64,000 nucleotides of DNA. It comes from an uncultured Bacilli bacterium (GTDB lineage Bacteria > Bacillota_I > Bacilli_A > RF39 > UBA660). The notes beneath the pieces are model-generated. The model had not been told where the DNA came from. It did not search any database and was given only the letters and a program-made list of their open reading frames with translations. The position numbers and the translations under genes are program-made. Shown piece after piece: positions 53,935-63,105 of the stretch. Numbering within the stretch: position 1 is the stretch's first letter; every line of letters begins with the position of its first letter. The DNA is taken from NCBI GenBank assembly GCA_949451605.1, contig CASTSB010000001.1, forward strand, positions 124,001 to 188,000, written 5' to 3'.

Positions 53935-54616
53935 TTTCATCATCTCTTCTTCCAAATATTAATATTAGTCTTAGTATTTCTAATATAGTAGAAAGAATGG
54001 ATGCTACATATGTAAGAGCAGCTGCTGTTAACATTGTTTTTCCTGAAGGTATCTCTTTATCATCTAATAAGTTATTGTTTTTTATTTCTTTAATAGCTCT
54101 TCTTGATGCATTTATTTCTACTGGTAAAGTAATTAGTTGAAATAGTAAAATTATAACCTCTGCAAATATTCCTAGCCAAATAAGTCCTAGTGAACCAAAG
54201 AAGCATCCAAGTAATATTGCGAAATATCCTGCATAAGAGGCAAAATTCACTAGTGGTATGATGCTACTTCTAAGATGCAAAAATGCGTATTCTTCCTTAT
54301 CTTGTATTGCATGACCACATTCGTGAGCTGCAACAGCAACTGAAGCTATACTCGTTCCATTATAGATGTCACTTGATAATCTAATTTCTTTATTTTCTGG
54401 ATCATAGTGATCTGTCAGTGTTCCCACAACTTCTACTATATTTATATTTTCTAAGTTATTATTATCTAATATAATTCTTGCGGCTTCTTGCCCTTTTATT
54501 CTTTTGTTAGATTTAACTCCTTTAAATTTGCTATAAGAAGCAGATACAAAACCTTGAGCACTCAAAGTTATTATTAGTGCCAGCATTGTTATTGTATATG
54601 ATACTACAATAATCAT
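53927..54616 (-). CDS. YugP-like zinc metallopeptidase, membrane
   Basis: 229 residues. A short N-terminal helix, then the metal-binding HEXXH in VAVAAHECGHAIQD and a following GYFAILLGCFF region; several transmembrane helices (about 120-165 and 195-220). The family (neutral zinc metallopeptidase, YugP) is membrane-bound and of unknown substrate. First gene of the peptidase, zinc-ribbon, ABC, ABC, lipid-kinase operon. Confidence 0.88.
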   Translation of the reverse strand: MIIVVSYTITMLALIITLSAQGFVSASYSKFKGVKSNKRIKGQEAARIILDNNNLENINIVEVVGTLTDHYDPENKEIRLSSDIYNGTSIASVAVAAHECGHAIQDKEEYAFLHLRSSIIPLVNFASYAGYFAILLGCFFGSLGLIWLGIFAEVIILLFQLITLPVEINASRRAIKEIKNNNLLDDKEIPSGKTMLTAAALTYVASILSTILEILRLILIFGRRDDEND

Positions 54617-54725
54617 TTGTTCCTCCTCTAATTCTATATTAGAAATACTAAGTACTATTAATTTTATTAATAAAAGACCCCAGATATACTTATAATCCTA
54701 ATATAAAACATAGATTATTATAGCA

Positions 54726-54751
54726 CAAAAAAAGACAGTTTAAAACTGTCT
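54726..54751 (-). terminator. Terminator after first BspA-like gene
   Basis: Minus-strand AGACAGTTT/AAACTGTCT stem (hairpin with minimal loop) then seven T residues. Confidence 0.82.
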
Positions 54752-54761
54752 AAAATTATTA

Positions 54762-57116
54762 TTAAGCAATTGATACCATTACACCACTCACACTATCTTC
54801 ATTTAAACGATCTTTAATCCACGTTTGAGCATCAACATTTTTTACGTATATTGTAGTTAATTCTTTGCTTGAACTAAACATACTTGATGAATTAGTAACA
54901 TTATTGAAAATAGCATTATTTAAATATATGACTTTCAAGTTAGTACAGAACATAAAAATATGATACGTTTTAGTAACATTAGATGTATCAAAACTGCTCA
55001 AATCTATTGTTTCTAAATTACCACATCTTGAAAACATTGATGATATATTAGTTACTTTGCTTGTATTAAATTTTTCTAGACCAATAATTTCTGTCAATGC
55101 CATATTATTATTCCATCCAGAAAACATACTATTCATATCAACTGCATTACTTGTATCAAAACTACTTACATCTATTGTAGTTAAGGAATGGCAACCTTGA
55201 AACATACCACTAAAATTATCAGCTTTTCCTGTTCTAAAGTTACTTACATCAAGACTTTGCAAATTATAACATCTAGCAAACATTGATCTAAATGAGTGAT
55301 AAAATCCATCTGGAGTAGTACTAACATTACTAGTATCAAAACCACTAACATCTAAAGATGTTAAAGATTGACAATCAGAAAACATACCTCCCATATCAGT
55401 ACATTTTGCTGTATTAAAATTGTCTAACTTCAAATATGTCAATTTGCTACATTCCTCAAACATTTCTTGCATTGTAGTGACATTACTAGTATCAAATTCG
55501 CTAATATCTAAACTTATAAGGCTTATTAGTTCACTAAATGTGCCAGACATATTAGTTACTCCTGAAGTGTTAAATTTATTTAAACTTAGAGTTGTTAAAC
55601 TACTGCATCCTTTAAACATCTCTTGAATACTTTCTAATTTACTAGATGTTGTAATGTTTTCCATATCCAAAGTTGTTAAATTTGAACATTTTTTAAACAT
55701 ACGTGACATAGTAGTAACATTATTCGCAATAAAATTAGGAGAATATGTTATTTCCTTTAATCCATTACATCCTTCAAACATTGATAACATATTTGTAACT
55801 TTAACAGTTGAAAAATTAGTCACATCTATTGATTCCAGCATTATGCAATTGTAAAACATTCTCCCCATATCAGTAACATTACTTGTATTGAAACTATATA
55901 TATTTAAAGTTGTTAATTTCTGACAATTATTAAACATAGATGCCATTATAGTTACTTTACTTGAATCGAAACTACTTAAATCTAATTCTATTAAATTTCT
56001 ACAATTTTGAAAAAGGCTAGTATAAGCACTAGCTTTTGAAGTATCGAATTTAGATAAATCTAATGCTTCTAAACTACTGCATCCTGAAAACATAAATGCT
56101 AACATTGAAACATTTGATGTATTAAAATTACTTAAATCAATTGTGGTTAAACTAGAACAATCTCTAAAAAGCTCATACATACTAGTAACTTTTTCTGTAT
56201 TAATAGTTGAAATATTTAAGTTAGTTAACTTAGAGCAGCTAGTAAATACATTATTCATACGTGTAACATTTTCAGTTTTAAGATAAGTTAAATCTATAGA
56301 AGTAGCATTCATACATGAATAGAACATATATCCAAGGCTATCTCCAGCTCTTACGCCATCATCTTGACCAATATACACTTCATATAATCCATTAGTATCA
56401 GCGTCTTCTGCATATAATTTAATACTATCAGATGAATCGTGCGAAACATCAAAATATGTTTTACCACCAAAAGTAATTGCATTAGAAGAAACTTCATCAG
56501 TATTTTTAAAGGAAACTGATTCAATTTGATTTTTCTTAATATCTGTATCTAAAAATCTACCAGTTGAGCTAGTACTTATTGGAGGCTTTTTTAAATAACT
56601 TTCAGCATATTTTTTGAATTCAAAATTTAAATTTAGATTATATGTAGTAGAAGATGAAGAAAATCCGCCTTCTTTATATTTTATAGTTAGAATGATTGTT
56701 TTTGTAAAACCTAGAGAGCACTTATTGTCCTGACATAGTTTATCACCTATATTGTAATCACTTATTGTGAATTCTAGATTATCTGGAAGACCTGTTATTG
56801 ATGCTAATTTCATCTCTTGGTTTCCTGTATTTGTTATATCAATCGCATAAGTTACGGTCGATCCACTATTAGGTAAAAGTGCTCCTACTTTTATACTTGC
56901 TTTATTATAGTCTTCTGATAAAGAAGTCCCTCCACTAGTTACTCCATTTACTCTTATTCCTGTTATTCTTATATCACTTTTTATACGGACATCAGCTACT
57001 GTTCCAGTTATATTTAAAACACTATTAAAAGATGCATAAGCAAGGCTTAAAGTTACTACAAATATTACAATTAAAATTGATAAGTTTTTGCTATTTACTA
57101 ACCTTTTAATACTCAT
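54762..57116 (-). CDS. BspA-like leucine-rich-repeat surface protein (DUF285 repeats)
   Basis: 784 residues. N-terminal export module (about 1-170): signal-like helix (about 12-28, ending YASFNSVLNITG), a beta-domain with the pair LCQDNKCS and the K-Y-K-E-G-G strand. From about 250 to the end, roughly 22 repeats of about 24 residues of type L-x-x-M-F-x-x-C-x-x-L-x-x-L-D-L-S-x-F-D-T-S-N-V-T form a BspA-type LRR solenoid. Ends in V-S-G-V-M-V-S-I-A with no LPXTG or membrane anchor. Probably a host-/mucin-adhesion protein. RBS GAGGTT. Highly similar organisation to the next gene. Confidence 0.92.
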   Translation of the reverse strand: MSIKRLVNSKNLSILIVIFVVTLSLAYASFNSVLNITGTVADVRIKSDIRITGIRVNGVTSGGTSLSEDYNKASIKVGALLPNSGSTVTYAIDITNTGNQEMKLASITGLPDNLEFTISDYNIGDKLCQDNKCSLGFTKTIILTIKYKEGGFSSSSTTYNLNLNFEFKKYAESYLKKPPISTSSTGRFLDTDIKKNQIESVSFKNTDEVSSNAITFGGKTYFDVSHDSSDSIKLYAEDADTNGLYEVYIGQDDGVRAGDSLGYMFYSCMNATSIDLTYLKTENVTRMNNVFTSCSKLTNLNISTINTEKVTSMYELFRDCSSLTTIDLSNFNTSNVSMLAFMFSGCSSLEALDLSKFDTSKASAYTSLFQNCRNLIELDLSSFDSSKVTIMASMFNNCQKLTTLNIYSFNTSNVTDMGRMFYNCIMLESIDVTNFSTVKVTNMLSMFEGCNGLKEITYSPNFIANNVTTMSRMFKKCSNLTTLDMENITTSSKLESIQEMFKGCSSLTTLSLNKFNTSGVTNMSGTFSELISLISLDISEFDTSNVTTMQEMFEECSKLTYLKLDNFNTAKCTDMGGMFSDCQSLTSLDVSGFDTSNVSTTPDGFYHSFRSMFARCYNLQSLDVSNFRTGKADNFSGMFQGCHSLTTIDVSSFDTSNAVDMNSMFSGWNNNMALTEIIGLEKFNTSKVTNISSMFSRCGNLETIDLSSFDTSNVTKTYHIFMFCTNLKVIYLNNAIFNNVTNSSSMFSSSKELTTIYVKNVDAQTWIKDRLNEDSVSGVMVSIA

Positions 57117-57282
57117 ATAAAACCTCGTTATCCACAGTTACCTACTATAGATAAAGTATACCCTTCCCCCGAGCAAAATGTCAATATTCCACAAAACAAA
57201 AAAGAAGATTTTTAAATTTGTATTGGTAAACTAAAAATGGATCCTATTAGAGAAAAACTATACAGTATATAGACTTTAAAAT

Positions 57283-57304
57283 AAAAAGGAAACTTTCGTT
57301 TCCC
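57283..57304 (-). terminator. Terminator after second BspA-like gene
   Basis: Minus-strand GGAAAC-GAAA-GTTTCC stem with GAAA tetraloop and TTTTTATTTT tail. Confidence 0.85.
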
Positions 57305-57314
57305 TATTATATTT

Positions 57315-60300
57315 TTAAGCAATTGATACAGTTACACCTGTTATGCTATCATTAGCAAGCTTTGAATTTACCCAAGATTGCATAGTAGTATTTTTAACAT
57401 AAACTGTTCTGAGTGAATGGCAGTAGTAAAACATTTCTTCTGTATTTGTTACCTTGCTTGTATCGAAATTTTTTATATTTAATGTTACTAAATCAGTGCA
57501 GGCTCTAAACATGCATTTCATGTTTGTTACATTACTTGTATTAAAACTACTTAAATCAAGAGTTGTAACACTTGCTTGCAAAAACATATATTGCATATTT
57601 GTAACATTGCTTGTATTAAAACTTCTTAAATCAAGAGATTGCCAATAACAGTTATAAAACATATATTGCATATCTGTACATTGACTTGTATCAAATTTAG
57701 TTGTATTTACATACTGAAGTGGCCAACAATTATAAAACATATATGCGGCATTAGTTGTTTTAATTTCATTTAATATAAGATTACTTAGTTTATTACAAAC
57801 ACAAAACATATAAGCAGTATTTGCATAGTTTTTAAGATTGAACTTTGATAAATCTATTTTTTCTAAGAGCTTACATCCATAAAACATATTTCTACATGTT
57901 GTCACATTTGTTGCAACAAAGTTTGATGTATCGATACTTGCTAGAGTATTACATTGATAAAACATATAACTAATATCCGTAACTGCATTTGTTAAAAAAG
58001 TTGCGGTATTTATATTTAGATTTTTTAATTTATTACATTGTTGGAACATTGCAGACATAGTTGTAACTTTGCTTGTATTTAGTGATCCTAAATTTATTGT
58101 TTCTACCGCATTACAAAGATTGAACATAAAAGCAGTAGTATTAACATTACTAATTGAAAATTTACTAAGGTTAATAGATGTTATTTGATTACAGCCATGA
58201 AACATACTATTTAATTTTTCAATATTTGTAGATACAAAGCTAGATGTATTAGCACTAGTTAAAACTGTACAGTTCCAAAACATTTGTCCCATATCTTTTA
58301 CATTACCTGTACTAAATTTTCCCAAATCGACCGAAGTTAAGCTATTACATTCTTTAAACATTGAATTTAAAGTTGTTGATAATGAAGGATTAAAGTTATT
58401 TAATGTAAGAGTTGCTAGTTTATTGCAATTATAAAACATATATGAATTATCTGTTACTTTACTTTCACCAAAACTGTTTAAATTTAATGAAGTTAAATTA
58501 TTACAGCCTGCAAACATACTTTTCATTTGAGTAACGTTTGTTGCAGTAAACTTGCTAGTATCAATTGATGTGAGTGAATTGCAATTATAAAACATCCATC
58601 CCATATTGGTTACTTTTTCAGTTTTAAAAGTAGTAGTATTTATAGTTATTGAACTAAGTTTGTAGCAGTCATAAAACATGTTTTTCATATCTGTTGTATT
58701 GCTTGTATTAAAACTGCTAAGATTAAGACTTGTTAGTTTATTGCATTCAGCAAACATTTGAAACATTGTAGTACAAAGATAAGGGTTAAAATTACTAATA
58801 TTTAGATTTACTAAATTAATACAGTCCCGAAACATATAAGCAGTAGTTGTTGTTTTACTAGTTCCTAGATTATTTAAATCTAAAGAAGTTAGACTACTAC
58901 ACTGCCAAAACATAGCATACATTGTAGTGGAATTAGTTCCTACAAATTTGCTTCCTAAAGTCAAGCTTGCTAATTTTGGACATTCAGCAAACATATATTC
59001 CATATTTTCTACACTTCTTGTATCCCAACTACTTATGTCAATTGTAGTCAATACAGAACATTTTCTAAACATAGATTGCATATCCGTTGAAAAACTAGCA
59101 ACAAAATTTTTTATATTTATTGAAGTTAGAGCAAAACATCTATTAAACATACTTGAAGTATTAGTTGCCTTAGTAGTTGTAAAAGACCCTAGATTTATCT
59201 CTGTTATACTATTGCAGTCATTAAACATACTTTTCGTGTTTAGAGCATTAGTAGCGACAAATTTAGATGTATCTACATTAAGAAGTTTCTTACATTCAGA
59301 GAACATCCAAGCCATATTAGTTACTTTATCAGTTTTAAATAAAGTAGTATCTATATTAATACTTATTAATTCTACACATAAATTAAACATTTTTTCCATA
59401 TCAGTAACTTTACTTGTATTAAATTTACTTAGATTTAAAGTAGTCAGGTTTGAACAATCGGAAAACATTCCAGACATATCTTCTACGTTTGATGTAATAA
59501 AATTTATAATGTTTAAATTAGTAAGCGAACTACATTCTGAAAACATTCTTTTCATTTGAGTTACTTTTGAGGTATTAAAAGAAGATAAGTCAACACTTTT
59601 AAGTTTATTACATTCAAAAAACATCCAGCCTAAATTAGTTACATTTGTTGTAATAAAGTTGCTTAAATCTAAAGATCCTATATTACTACAAGTGTGGAAC
59701 ATAGAATGCATATCAATAACATTACTAGTATCAAATGTCGATAAATCTAGCCCTGTTAGACTACTACACATACTAAAAATATAACTCATATCTGTTACTT
59801 TTGATGTATTAAATCTTGATAAATTAAGAGTTGTTAAGCTACTACAATAATTAAATAAAGAATTCATACTTGTAACGGCATCTGTATTAAAATATGTTAA
59901 ATCTATTGATTTAAGATTAGTCATATATTTAAATAGAAAACTAGAATCTGGATTTGCTTTTACTCCTCCATCTTGACCTATATATAATTCATATAAGCCA
60001 TTATTATCTGTATCAGTATAATATGCCATAATATTTCCAGTTGAGTCTTCAGATACATCAAAACTTTCAATTACGTTAACAGGTACTGCTTTGCTATTTT
60101 TAAAAGAAATAGACTCTATTTCATTTCTTTTAGCTGTTTGATTAAAGAATTTAACATCAGCAGAGTCTGGGTTTCCTGAAACCTTTAAATAATCAATATA
60201 ACTATTGGTAATTACAATATCTCCTGATACATTTGGAATTGTAAGTATTCCTGTTGAATGTGTATAATCAAAATTTGTAATGGAAACATTGTTCATTTTT

Positions 60301-60938
60301 ATTGTCATACTTGATGGCTTTTGATTTTCATTATTAAAATCTAACTTATATGTACCATTTCTAATTGCAGAATCGTTTTTTTGTTTTCCTTCATTAGTAT
60401 TATATGTAACTGTATACATCCTTTGAAAATCAAAATCTAATTTTAAATTATAAGTTGTTGAAGATGCAGAGAATCCTCCATCTTTATATTTAATCTTAAC
60501 TCGTATTGTTTTAGTCATTCCTAGACTACATTTATTATCCTGGCATAAAGCTTTATTCATTTCGTAATCAAGTACTTCAAGTGATAAATTTTCTGGTAAA
60601 TTATTAATTGAAAGAATTCCCATCTCTACATTACCAAGATTAGTTATATCTACTGCATATACCGCCTCAGATGTAGAACTTGGAAGAGTTACACCTACTT
60701 GGATATTATTCTTATTATAATCCTCATAATTAGATGAAGCATTATTAAAACTACTAGTTCTAATTCCTGTTATTCTTATATCTTCTCTTATTCTAACATC
60801 AGTTGAAAAACCTGATAGATTAAGATTAGAATTAAATGCCGCATAACCAAAGCTTAGTAGTACAACAACGCTTAAAATTAATATAGAAAGGTTTCTTTTA
60901 GTAATATTCTTTTCTAAGTATCTTAAAAAAACATTCAT
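57315..60938 (-). CDS. Giant BspA-like LRR surface protein (DUF285 repeats)
   Basis: 1207 residues with the same N-terminal export module as the 784-residue neighbour (about 1-170; FGYAAFNSNLNLSG, CQDNKCSLGMTKTI), then a short extra beta-domain (about 170-240, YTVTYNTNEGKQKND, a bacterial-Ig-like/flaggin-like repeat) absent from the neighbour, and about 35 LRR repeats (about 340-1190) of the DUF285 type, ending again ...TGVTVSIA. Secreted, unanchored by any motif I can see. Paralogous duplication and expansion are evident. RBS GAAGGTGAGC. Confidence 0.92.
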   Translation of the reverse strand: MNVFLRYLEKNITKRNLSILILSVVVLLSFGYAAFNSNLNLSGFSTDVRIREDIRITGIRTSSFNNASSNYEDYNKNNIQVGVTLPSSTSEAVYAVDITNLGNVEMGILSINNLPENLSLEVLDYEMNKALCQDNKCSLGMTKTIRVKIKYKDGGFSASSTTYNLKLDFDFQRMYTVTYNTNEGKQKNDSAIRNGTYKLDFNNENQKPSSMTIKMNNVSITNFDYTHSTGILTIPNVSGDIVITNSYIDYLKVSGNPDSADVKFFNQTAKRNEIESISFKNSKAVPVNVIESFDVSEDSTGNIMAYYTDTDNNGLYELYIGQDGGVKANPDSSFLFKYMTNLKSIDLTYFNTDAVTSMNSLFNYCSSLTTLNLSRFNTSKVTDMSYIFSMCSSLTGLDLSTFDTSNVIDMHSMFHTCSNIGSLDLSNFITTNVTNLGWMFFECNKLKSVDLSSFNTSKVTQMKRMFSECSSLTNLNIINFITSNVEDMSGMFSDCSNLTTLNLSKFNTSKVTDMEKMFNLCVELISINIDTTLFKTDKVTNMAWMFSECKKLLNVDTSKFVATNALNTKSMFNDCNSITEINLGSFTTTKATNTSSMFNRCFALTSINIKNFVASFSTDMQSMFRKCSVLTTIDISSWDTRSVENMEYMFAECPKLASLTLGSKFVGTNSTTMYAMFWQCSSLTSLDLNNLGTSKTTTTAYMFRDCINLVNLNISNFNPYLCTTMFQMFAECNKLTSLNLSSFNTSNTTDMKNMFYDCYKLSSITINTTTFKTEKVTNMGWMFYNCNSLTSIDTSKFTATNVTQMKSMFAGCNNLTSLNLNSFGESKVTDNSYMFYNCNKLATLTLNNFNPSLSTTLNSMFKECNSLTSVDLGKFSTGNVKDMGQMFWNCTVLTSANTSSFVSTNIEKLNSMFHGCNQITSINLSKFSISNVNTTAFMFNLCNAVETINLGSLNTSKVTTMSAMFQQCNKLKNLNINTATFLTNAVTDISYMFYQCNTLASIDTSNFVATNVTTCRNMFYGCKLLEKIDLSKFNLKNYANTAYMFCVCNKLSNLILNEIKTTNAAYMFYNCWPLQYVNTTKFDTSQCTDMQYMFYNCYWQSLDLRSFNTSNVTNMQYMFLQASVTTLDLSSFNTSNVTNMKCMFRACTDLVTLNIKNFDTSKVTNTEEMFYYCHSLRTVYVKNTTMQSWVNSKLANDSITGVTVSIA

Positions 60939-61012
60939 ATGCTCACCTTCTATCTGCTATTTTACTATATATTAGTATACCAAAAAATTACTCACCTAAC
61001 AACAAAATGCAA

Positions 61013-61037
61013 TAAAAAAAGGAAACTATGTTTCCTT
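61013..61037 (-). terminator. Terminator after small secreted protein gene
   Basis: Minus-strand AAGGAAAC-ATA-GTTTCCTT stem followed by T5; its stem is nearly the same as the one after the large BspA-like gene. Confidence 0.85.
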
Positions 61038-61047
61038 AATTATTTAA

Positions 61048-61626
61048 TTAATAATTTGCTGTTGAATCTGCTTGTTGGAATACAAGTGATAAGTTACATG
61101 TAATGCTATCTAGTGCAGTTGGCAAATCAGTTGCATTTAAGTTTTTGTTGTATTCTACTCTTACTTTAACTTTTTTAGAAGCATTTGCTCTTAGTCCATC
61201 TTTAACAGTTAAATTATTTCCATCTGCATAACTAACAGTATATGTTAAATATTTTTGTTGGTCTGCAGTTAATTGAGATTTATTAACTGAAGTTAACATA
61301 GCATCAATTGTACCTTTGTTAGCAATATCTACTGTAAATTCATAGAAATCTCCAGGTAATGCTAATTCAACTGAGAAATTTAATCTTGTAGGATCTCCAG
61401 TTGCTAAAGCAATTGTTCCACTTTGTGTGTTTGATGCACTTTCTTGAATATTTTCAAATTGTACTTTCCATGTATTTTTCTTAATTGAAGTGCTACCAGT
61501 AATATTTAATGTTGTTGATAAAACTGCGAAACCTACACTCATACATAAAATTAGTAATAAAACTAAATATAATTTACTGTTATTATCTTTTTTTCTTTGT
61601 TCTTGACCTTGTCCTTGATTATTCAT
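61048..61626 (-). CDS. Small secreted/surface protein with the BspA-type export module
   Basis: 192 residues: 15 charged/Gln residues, a hydrophobic export helix (about 18-36) ending VGFAVLSTTLNITGSTSI, and one beta-rich domain with the features of the N-terminal module of the two LRR proteins. Possible processing after the A-V-L-S stretch. No repeats. May be a fibre-like or structural subunit (TasA-like biofilm proteins come to mind) but similarity is not strong enough to say so. RBS AGGGAGGAG. Directly upstream of the LRR genes. Confidence 0.75.
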   Translation of the reverse strand: MNNQGQGQEQRKKDNNSKLYLVLLLILCMSVGFAVLSTTLNITGSTSIKKNTWKVQFENIQESASNTQSGTIALATGDPTRLNFSVELALPGDFYEFTVDIANKGTIDAMLTSVNKSQLTADQQKYLTYTVSYADGNNLTVKDGLRANASKKVKVRVEYNKNLNATDLPTALDSITCNLSLVFQQADSTANY

Positions 61627-61725
61627 AAATATCTCCTCCCTATGATAATTTAATTTTAATATTTTAAATTTAAATAGTCAAGAGATGATATTAAAATTTT
61701 ACAGTTCAACATAATTTTGTCACTT

Positions 61726-63105
61726 TTAAAAATTAGAATGCTTTTTTGTTTTAGTTTTTTCTAAAGATTTAGAATCTATATAAATAACTTTGCCTCCTGG
61801 AGGAGAAATTTCTACTCCATCATAAACCATCCAAATGATATTACTCTTTTTCTTAGGTGTTTCTGCATAACCATCTGTAAATATTATTTTGTTATTAGCG
61901 TGAGGCGTGAACGAGTTAACTGCAACATCAAAATCTGTTCCGCCTCTACCTTCAAATACTAAATTATCAATATCAGTCATGTTTTTAACTGGTTGAAATC
62001 CATAGAATTTGGTATCAAAACAACCTACTGATAATATTGAATCTTTTAAAATGTTTTTACATTCTCTTAAAAAGTTTTTTAGTAATTCTTCATCAACAGA
62101 TCCACTAGTATCTAATAAAATTTCTGTTTCATTATGTGGTAATTCTTCTAGATGGGGAGTAACTACACCATACTCTATTGTTGCATTTTCAAAGGACCAA
62201 TCATAGTCACGATAAGTATTCACTTGAAGTATTCTTTTCCAATCTAATAAATTTGTTTTTCCTTCAATATTAGATAAATTTATTTTTTCTTGATCTGTCT
62301 CTTCTCCAGGAAGTCTTGGTCCAGCTGTTTTTATTTTTTCTAACTTATCTTTTAATTTCTTTAAATTAACTAATTTTTCTTTTTTATTTTCTTTAAAGCT
62401 TTTAGTCTCATCAATTTCTTTATTTGGATGATTTTCTTTATCTAAATTAGAATCTGTACCATTTTTTACTTTTTTATTATCATCTTTTTCTTCATCCAAC
62501 CATCTTTTATGAGAAGAAACATTATTTTCATCAAATTCATCATTGCTTTTATTATTGCCCTTATCATTTTCTTCAAAGTCTTCACTATCTTTTATATTAC
62601 TATTTTGAGAGTCCTTCTCATTATGATTATTGTTTTGAGACTTATTACTGTCCTGAATACTTTGTCCTTTATTGTAATCTTTTTGGCTTTTATTTTTACT
62701 ATCATCTTTTTTGGTCTGTTCTTCTTTTATTAGTTTTTCGTAAAACTTTTCAGCACTGAAGTTTACAGCTTCTGGTTTATCTATAATACCTTCAGGAGCG
62801 GTTAAACCATCTTTTTTTAGAAGGGCATTAATGACTGCATCCGTTGCGATATTCCATAATCTAAGATTCTTATTTTTACATCTTTTTATATGATCAAAGG
62901 CTATATGACATACTTCATGGGCTATTGTGAATTTTTGTTGGTCTTCTGTTAATTTTTCTAAAAAAGTTTTATTGTAATAAATATTTTTGCCATTTGTTTC
63001 ACATGTTCCATAATCTTGTTCTATAAATTTTGCACTTGTAATAATTCTTCCGAATAAGGGGTAAGATGCTAAAAGGCTTGTCTTTATTTTATCAATATTT
63101 ACCAT
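61726..63105 (-). CDS. VWA-like (DUF2201) protein with N-terminal metallopeptidase-like domain
   Basis: About 459 residues. Residues about 40-80 hold the zinc motif FTIAHEVCHIAFDH (HExxH plus downstream His); then an Asn/Lys/Glu-rich linker (about 135-250, low complexity) and a C-terminal VWA-like domain with MIDAS LDTSGSVDEE and GGTDFDVA. DUF2201-type proteins are partners of MoxR-family AAA+ ATPases, which is the arrangement here. Start at 63105 (RBS GGTGATAT); a frame reaching 63120 would add five residues. Genes at 63105-63488 and 63445-64000 are upstream in the same operon. Confidence 0.85.
   Translation of the reverse strand: MVNIDKIKTSLLASYPLFGRIITSAKFIEQDYGTCETNGKNIYYNKTFLEKLTEDQQKFTIAHEVCHIAFDHIKRCKNKNLRLWNIATDAVINALLKKDGLTAPEGIIDKPEAVNFSAEKFYEKLIKEEQTKKDDSKNKSQKDYNKGQSIQDSNKSQNNNHNEKDSQNSNIKDSEDFEENDKGNNKSNDEFDENNVSSHKRWLDEEKDDNKKVKNGTDSNLDKENHPNKEIDETKSFKENKKEKLVNLKKLKDKLEKIKTAGPRLPGEETDQEKINLSNIEGKTNLLDWKRILQVNTYRDYDWSFENATIEYGVVTPHLEELPHNETEILLDTSGSVDEELLKNFLRECKNILKDSILSVGCFDTKFYGFQPVKNMTDIDNLVFEGRGGTDFDVAVNSFTPHANNKIIFTDGYAETPKKKSNIIWMVYDGVEISPPGGKVIYIDSKSLEKTKTKKHSNF

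Follow-up and report, generated by a model that had tools for sequence, protein, structure and literature searches.

Three neighbouring genes in a 64,000-nucleotide stretch of an uncultured Bacilli bacterium of the RF39 lineage (contig CASTSB010000001.1, positions 124,001 to 188,000; in the following the window) code for proteins which begin with the same N-terminal module. One of them, of 192 amino acids (aa), is a stand-alone module, and the two large ones, of 784 and 1207 aa, carry leucine-rich repeats (LRR) behind it. We find that the module recurs throughout the genome and is paired with a long endoplasmic reticulum (ER)-type signal peptidase, and we are confident of both its export and this pairing. 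On balance, we favour the view that the module is an export-and-assembly unit, a divergent TasA-like subunit which would be cut by the ER-type peptidase and displayed in a donor-strand fibre. This bacterium with its tiny genome appears to display dozens of secreted proteins, each built on one starter domain.

The module is shared beyond the signal peptide

All three window proteins have a charged N-terminus and then a hydrophobic helix, the end of which is conserved and resembles a cleavage site; a beta-sandwich of ~130 residues follows. In the alignment, the modules of the two LRR proteins are 55% identical to each other. Between the 192-aa protein and the 784-aa module the identity is 22%; in a wider alignment, its identity to the two LRR modules is 16% and 18%. 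The cysteine pair CQDNKC, noticed earlier in a reading of the sequence alone, is indeed present in both LRR modules and is absent from the 192-aa protein. The pair is therefore a trait of one subfamily, which we call A and to which it is restricted; the 192-aa protein belongs to a second subfamily, B. For the first ~170–190 residues of the three proteins, Pfam and NCBIfam contain no family above cut-off. The camelysin family PF12389 reaches E = 0.032 with the 192-aa protein, below its cut-off and alongside other sub-threshold matches such as DUF2713 (E = 0.007).

When the 784-aa module and the 192-aa protein are compared by pairwise BLAST, there is only a weak match centred on the signal end (E = 5e-4, one comparison). 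We therefore compared profiles of the mature part, from which helix and motif had been removed, with column-shuffled and reversed profiles as controls. The comparison of subfamilies A and B reaches 40.4 across 119 columns, against 19.2 for the best of 20 column shuffles; B with a third subfamily, C, reaches 51.8 across 95 columns (best shuffle 19.3). With 66 B sequences, the scores rise to 66.2 for A–B (best of 30 shuffles 23.9) and 66.5 for B–C (16.5). A and C do not match each other directly (17.4, against 21.8 for the best shuffle) and are thus connected only via B. The sequence-only reading, which had proposed a common charged start, helix and beta-domain for the three proteins, is thus borne out by the alignment, by the mature-only profiles and by the predicted sandwich described below, and the similarity is not limited to the signal peptides. 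A direct domain relationship of A and C was looked for in this comparison and not found.

A genome-wide set with different cargo

Searches of the window's own genome (1,328,449 bases in 22 contigs, 95% complete; C numbers denote contigs) uncovered about 47 open module frames in the three subfamilies. Subfamily A, which is linked to LRR and has the cysteine pair, comprises 11 aligned open genes and a 702-codon frame at C6:22231; three more copies are broken. Subfamily B has 11 aligned members as well as C4:43231, and one further frame with a stop. Subfamily C consists of stand-alone proteins of about 230 aa and was found at 27 places (E ≤ 1e-46), 23 of which have no internal stop; two of these 23 have no module start. 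Altogether, the set adds up to about 62 kb (4.7% of the assembly), a sum which omits C6:22231 and assumes 229 codons for each C frame. The module is thus spread over the genome and is not confined to a local cluster; in this respect the sequence-only reading was too narrow.

Behind the module, rather different proteins are found. The C-terminal cargo of the B proteins includes LamG-like folds and LRR, and in relatives ALK/LTK glycine-rich, Listeria-Bacteroides repeat and DUF6273-like regions (the last below cut-off) as well as a frame of 5,479 codons. Three of the 20 proteins scanned, all of them long (L069:14964, L150, L155), match no family. The 5,479-codon frame (L133; genome G024, contig C24, from 57178 downwards) opens with a B module and has a high content of Gly, Thr and Asn; it is a giant adhesin-like protein in a genome of 1.1 Mb. 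In the window's own genome, a 434-aa protein with a degenerate motif (C3:94948-96252) lies between two B genes, in a stretch flanked by the two long signal peptidases described below.

None of the 40 own-genome frames scanned has an LPXTG-like motif in its last 60 residues, and by eye the lipobox pattern [LVI][ASTVI][GAS]C is absent from the three window sequences. The earlier statement that the proteins have neither LPXTG nor another anchor holds to this extent. We dropped a lipoprotein reading because there is no lipobox, and a sortase-anchored reading because there is no LPXTG, although the genome has sortase genes (five above cut-off). A type IV pilin was also dropped, since the hydrophobic helix precedes the predicted cut rather than following it.

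The B profile (E ≤ 1e-4) matches 24 of 60 related genomes; in these and the following counts the own genome is included. All six genomes of the genus have it, with 3–42 copies each, and in all 23 of 37 in the family, whereas outside the family it was found in one of 23. In a sample of the class, 24 of 395 genomes are positive, 22 from this family and two from one genus of another family, and in a sample of the phylum 10 of 392, all from this family; in both surveys at most eight candidates were scored per genome, so that copy numbers there are lower bounds. A profile scan of genome contigs matched four loci, and the viral contigs scanned contain no relative of the module. As close to 5% of the DNA is devoted to the module set and the genus-mates have 3–42 B copies, it is probably a main means by which these bacteria meet their host and neighbours. 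The expansion of subfamily C is almost confined to the window's own genome: among the 59 other relatives searched, only G023 has a match below 1e-20.

A long ER-type signal peptidase accompanies the module

The sequence-only reading had suggested looking for a SipW-type peptidase, and a Ser/His ER-type signal peptidase is indeed encoded in the genome. Four proteins exceed the cut-off of TIGR02228 (ER-type signal peptidase I). Two of the four have 388 aa, with a C-terminal catalytic domain behind a polytopic N-terminal part of about 255 residues, for which no Pfam or NCBIfam family scores above cut-off. These two reach 94.1 and 85.0 bits with TIGR02228 (cut-off 51.85) and fall short of NF046067, the SipW family of Bacilli (66.3 and 70.0 bits, cut-off 190). 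One is encoded one gene upstream of an A gene (C3:79923), and the other starts 70 bp past a B gene (C3:96274-97746).

Among the 60 relatives, the long form of the peptidase (355–415 codons) is present in 22 of the 24 B-positive genomes and in none of the 36 B-negative ones (Fisher p = 2e-14 overall and 2e-8 within the family, a statistic which ignores relatedness). A module frame lies on the same strand within 1.5 kb of 27 of the 33 long peptidases, and for 23 of these 27 the closest such frame codes for a stand-alone module and is no longer than 247 codons (one of the 23 is cut by a contig end). For the other ER-type peptidases no module was found in the flanks, mostly of 1.5 kb (0/24), and 12 of these 24 come from module-positive genomes. 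The 27 long peptidases aligned all have S290, H329, D348 and D354, together with E118, R121 and P210 of the N-terminal domain.

Long peptidases with this polytopic domain are encoded at L088:721-1887 and L090:727-1893 and in 21 other genomes. Short ER-type peptidases adjoin genes for classical PF12389 camelysin-like proteins at G013:C25, G013:C49, G025:C20 and G041:C1; short peptidase and PF12389 gene are a second, parallel pair in the same class. At L091:799-1395 a protein with an N-terminus of a different, camelysin-like style is encoded beside the short peptidase at C8:45384.

Cleavage motif, mature N-terminus and predicted structure

When the motif was not required, 123 distinct mature domains were obtained from the fetched loci with profiles built from motif-bearing own-genome members (10 of 133 were omitted for too little upstream sequence). 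A hydrophobic segment precedes 121 of them, and the strict motif is present in 102. Inspection of the other 21 by eye showed a clear if looser version in 17, a doubtful one in two and none in two. In 96 motif-selected modules (105 proteins minus nine which fail the mature-domain profile), P3 is small in 87, P2 aromatic in 82 and P1 Ala or Ser in 93; the selection pattern itself demanded a hydrophobic P2, a small P1, a hydrophobic P2′ and a Leu near P6′, and fixed much of P6′–P8′. The module thus presents the cleavage context of SipW (small P3, aromatic P2, Ala at P1, large hydrophobic P2′), in part as a consequence of the search pattern. According to PMC10269814, TasA has Trp at P2 and Phe at P2′ and is cut by SipW, whereas these residues hinder the Ser/Lys enzyme LepB, which cuts it poorly.

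Behind the predicted cut, a short stretch is conserved. The A modules begin with [AS]FNSxLNI; mature TasA starts with AFNDI and mature TapA with AFHDI (PMC10151520). Between the three subfamilies, P3′–P10′ are 0.38–0.45 identical (0.12–0.13 when shuffled; P6′ and P8′ are partly selected), and P11′–P20′ only 0.05–0.13 (0.07 when shuffled). For the 192-aa protein as a monomer, AlphaFold2 predicts a helix at residues 9–39 and a confident beta-sandwich at 55–185; the predicted local distance difference test value is below 50 for residues 39–45. For the 784-aa protein, strands at 49–169 are predicted with moderate confidence. In one relative (L102) the sandwich is duplicated (42% identity over 125 columns), and the conserved N-terminal stretch is missing from the second copy. 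Judged from sequence and model, the N-terminal stretch would fit a donor strand; in TasA, the donor strand consists of residues 28–38 (PMC9674648).

Comparison with known systems

The closest parallels are TasA/TapA/SipW of B. subtilis, TasA/CalY of B. cereus and the PF12389 family. In the published descriptions (PMC9674648, PMC10269814, PMC10151520, PMC13082335), a secreted beta-sandwich, as predicted for the module, follows a signal helix ending small-aromatic-Ala, the mature N-terminus is hydrophobic (AFND there, [AS]FNS here), the gene lies beside that of an ER-type signal peptidase, and the system is sortase-independent. Unlike these systems, the module stays below the PF12389 cut-off, its peptidase is longer by a polytopic N-terminal domain, one genome holds about 47 copies, and modules are fused to large cargo. 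By score, the module is outside the curated camelysin family, yet by analogy it probably works like a member. Two proteins of relatives, L188 and L190, match both B (E = 3.7e-12 and 4.1e-27) and, below cut-off, PF12389 (E = 2.9e-4 and 8.3e-4).

Archaeal bundling pili and the 0406 filament of Sulfolobus acidocaldarius are a second possible parallel. In a profile search of the PDB, the archaeal bundling protein X (9rhp) comes second with a weak match to profile positions 69–176 (E = 0.13). It is preceded by Titin, whose E of 6e-4 refers to the entire chain and is made up of scattered weak matches; we take both as leads only. The A6 and A4 profiles gave nothing useful in this search. The 0406 filament is among the top structural matches. 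The archaeal matches are not significant alone and are tied with unrelated Ig-like folds.

The cargo of both window LRR proteins is of the same type as in the DUF285/PARCEL/BspA-like surface proteins: their LRR parts belong to DUF285/TIGR02167 (PARCEL), far above the cut-offs of PF03382 and TIGR02167. The model of the 784-aa protein contains an LRR solenoid, and the best target TM-score among the 50 Foldseek matches listed (0.67) is that of BACOVA_04585 (4fs7). PARCEL proteins are described in PMC2996958 as lipoproteins or with other membrane topologies, while the LRR of the window proteins come after a module for which cleavage is predicted. Among the matches listed for open-licence articles in PMC there is no paper on the module, on the long peptidase or on poly-G switching in this lineage, which leaves absence from print unproven.

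Proposed mechanism and alternatives

We suggest that the system could work in these following steps. The precursor would be exported by Sec, and the long peptidase would cut after the conserved small P1 residue. The new N-terminus, x-[FL]-[NS]-[ST]-x-L-x-I-x-G, could then act as a donor strand and make the beta-sandwich of the following subunit complete. The repeating subunits might be the stand-alone B and C proteins, and the LRR, LamG-like, Gly-rich and other long proteins might join in or on the fibre via the same strand, which would allow display without sortase. The LRR repertoire might be renewed through recombination at the module, and individual A genes might be switched by poly-G slippage. 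That all this amounts to one sortase-free display machine, in which the peptidase matures and perhaps hands over the donor-strand modules to mixed fibres with exchangeable cargo and poly-G switching, is a tentative proposal only.

The sequence-only reading had taken the small window protein for the polymer to which the large proteins attach. The general idea is supported by the gene order elsewhere, as a stand-alone module is nearest to the long peptidase in 23 of 27 cases, like tasA to sipW; the window protein, a candidate subunit, has many equivalents in the genome.

Several observations weigh against a TasA-like fibre with its own peptidase. Polymer, cleavage and surface location are all predicted, from sequence and models. 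Foldseek gave no match at E ≤ 0.001, and the TasA fibre (8aur) appears at rank 6 with E = 0.019. With VIA-align, the TasA fibre has a Z of 5.7 (119 residues, root-mean-square deviation 3.1) and the archaeal 0406 filament one of 6.7 (142 residues, deviation 8.6), both tied with unrelated Ig-like folds. The 192-aa protein misses the PF12389 gathering threshold (14.5 against 22.5 bits), only one of 11 B members reaches E = 0.1 with this family, and PF12389 itself has no match at E ≤ 0.001 in the own genome. In a profile comparison with classical camelysins, the alignment of B extends over just 31 columns (score 36.0; no shuffle exceeds 10.8), and for A there is hardly any (19.5); L188, L190 and L183 were omitted here, and L173 was trimmed too early and retains part of the helix. 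At the cleavage site, P2′ is aromatic in only 30 of the 96 modules, and P1′–P2′ are similar in A and C and differ in B (identity 0.00 and 0.03). Concerning the pairing, for 6 of the 33 long peptidases no module lies nearby on the same strand. One of them, in G021, has a module on the opposite strand at 933 bp; for the other five (G013:C26, G005:C10, G026:C20, G050 and G003:C7) no module was found in the stretch examined. The module-positive genomes G007 and G030 show no long peptidase, and none is encoded inside the window.

It is possible, though rather unlikely, that the helix is not cleaved at all and that the module is an N-terminal membrane anchor with a stalk which tethers the proteins to the cell membrane. 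The model helix runs unbroken through the putative site, and the 40 frames scanned have no LPXTG-like anchor. However, a plain anchor needs neither conserved small residues at the end of the helix nor a conserved strand behind it, and the pairing with an ER-type peptidase would be left unexplained.

Another unlikely possibility is that the module is cleaved and secreted and that the sandwich binds the wall or another part of the envelope as a monomer, with neither fibre nor donor strand. Ig-like folds serve many kinds of binding, the sortase genes make a cell wall likely, and the separate terminators of the window genes would fit large proteins which each stand alone. Monomeric binding does not explain, however, why A and C, between which a direct alignment of the domains has been lost, still have the conserved mature N-terminus in common, nor the abundance of stand-alone modules that carry no cargo.

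That these are just secreted LRR proteins of the usual BspA-like kind which have a signal peptide in common, and that the beta-domain is a trivial relic of duplication, is very improbable: DUF285/PARCEL proteins are widely known (PMC2996958) and the A paralogues are plainly duplicates, but the same module heads unrelated cargo or none, and in A the module is kept while the cargo diverges.

If the donor-strand mechanism is true, the role of such fibres would widen from scaffolding biofilms to serving Gram-positive bacteria as a general platform for display, and a signal-peptidase architecture would be added whose N-terminal part is not described by Pfam and NCBIfam. The module profile together with the long peptidase would then be a handle to annotate proteins which are unnamed in these databases.

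Probable recombination of the module, and poly-G tracts

The sequence-only reading had foreseen neither the peptidase, whose N-terminal domain is unannotated, nor the apparent recombination of the module, nor the poly-G tracts. The A paralogues are clearly products of duplication. We compared six A genes in 15 pairs: the module (bases 1–510) is 77–98% identical, and bases 511–900 are 41–66% identical; for bases 901–1500, the identity is 38–55% in the 10 pairs which exclude the short gene C4:72373. At fourfold-degenerate sites, eight of nine pairs agree at 0.67–1.00 in the module versus 0.37–0.52 in the cargo; the ninth pair, between two A subgroups, has 0.39 in the module and 0.45 in the cargo. 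For 120 codons the genes C15:5919 and C6:18368 show no difference, and beyond this point they diverge. Similarity at synonymous sites is not predicted by selection on the protein alone and thus suggests gene conversion or recombination of the 5′ module. As judged by these sites, the A module is homogenised between paralogues.

In the whole assembly (G+C content 27% in the 315 kb read) there are only two tracts of nine or more G. One of these G10 tracts (C15:8511-8520, minus strand) lies between TTGACA and TATACT, in a spacer of 19 bases, upstream of the A gene C15:5919. The other (C1:66555-66564) falls within the module part of the frame of C1:66359, an A gene with a frameshift. The same promoter with interrupted G-rich spacers precedes the 784-aa gene of the window (18 bases, 57155-57184) and C6:18368 (20 bases). 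As the A genes with 100 bp upstream make up about 2.6% of the assembly, two of two tracts would fall there by chance with a probability of about 7e-4, calculated post hoc.

Both G10 tracts have the features of a contingency locus, that is a long homopolymer in a promoter spacer or early in a frame; the window tract is interrupted. We consider it likely, from these tracts, that at least two A genes are phase-variable by poly-G slippage. A pilus switch of Bifidobacterium breve is reportedly such a poly-G contingency locus (PMC9187656), which would likewise combine a long G tract in a promoter or early frame with a gene for a surface protein; in our case the comparison draws on the tracts of one assembly.

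A near copy of the C1:66359 gene, C1:16070, has an interrupted tract and is broken too. In G007, which belongs to another genus, G9 tracts occur in the fetched loci L159 (around 1196) and L160 (around 2458), roughly 145–170 bp upstream of B-module genes, and each is followed by a hairpin-like repeat; the loci, rather than the whole genome, were searched for such tracts.

Features of the window

The positions of the genes, modules and putative signals are given in Table 1. An Rfam scan of 54000-62000 gave no match above thresholds, and a comparison with PHROGs no useful match. The promoter consensus scan found 48 sites where 56 are expected in shuffles; with 11 of 12 consensus positions, the promoter-like site of the 784-aa gene is the best among the 48.

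Table 1. The three module genes and predicted features in and around them (window coordinates)
Feature	Position	Strand	Remarks
192-aa stand-alone module protein, subfamily B	61048..61626	-	first in transcription order; predicted cleavage after Ala34 (from the motif); candidate donor strand 35-44; predicted beta-sandwich 55-185
1207-aa subfamily A protein, DUF285/PARCEL-type LRR repeats	57315..60938	-	PF03382 502.7 bits, TIGR02167 480.5 bits
784-aa subfamily A protein, DUF285/PARCEL-type LRR repeats	54762..57116	-	PF03382 271.5 bits, TIGR02167 369.7 bits
N-terminal module of 1207-aa protein, residues 1-174	60417..60938	-	predicted cleavage after Ala33
N-terminal module of 784-aa protein, residues 1-170	56607..57116	-	predicted cleavage after Ala28
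Promoter-like site, 784-aa gene	57155..57184	-	TTGACA, 18-base G-rich spacer (GGGGGAAGGG), TATACT
Promoter-like site, 1207-aa gene	60974..61002	-	consensus match only
Promoter-like site, 192-aa gene	61653..61681	-	consensus match only
Terminator-like stem after 192-aa gene	61019..61037	-	
Terminator-like stem after 1207-aa gene	57286..57305	-	
Terminator-like stem after 784-aa gene	54733..54751	-	

Terminator-like stems are more frequent than expected, with seven found in the region on both strands against an expectation of 1.2. Each of the three genes has its own terminator-like stem and promoter-like site, and thus they need not share one transcription unit.

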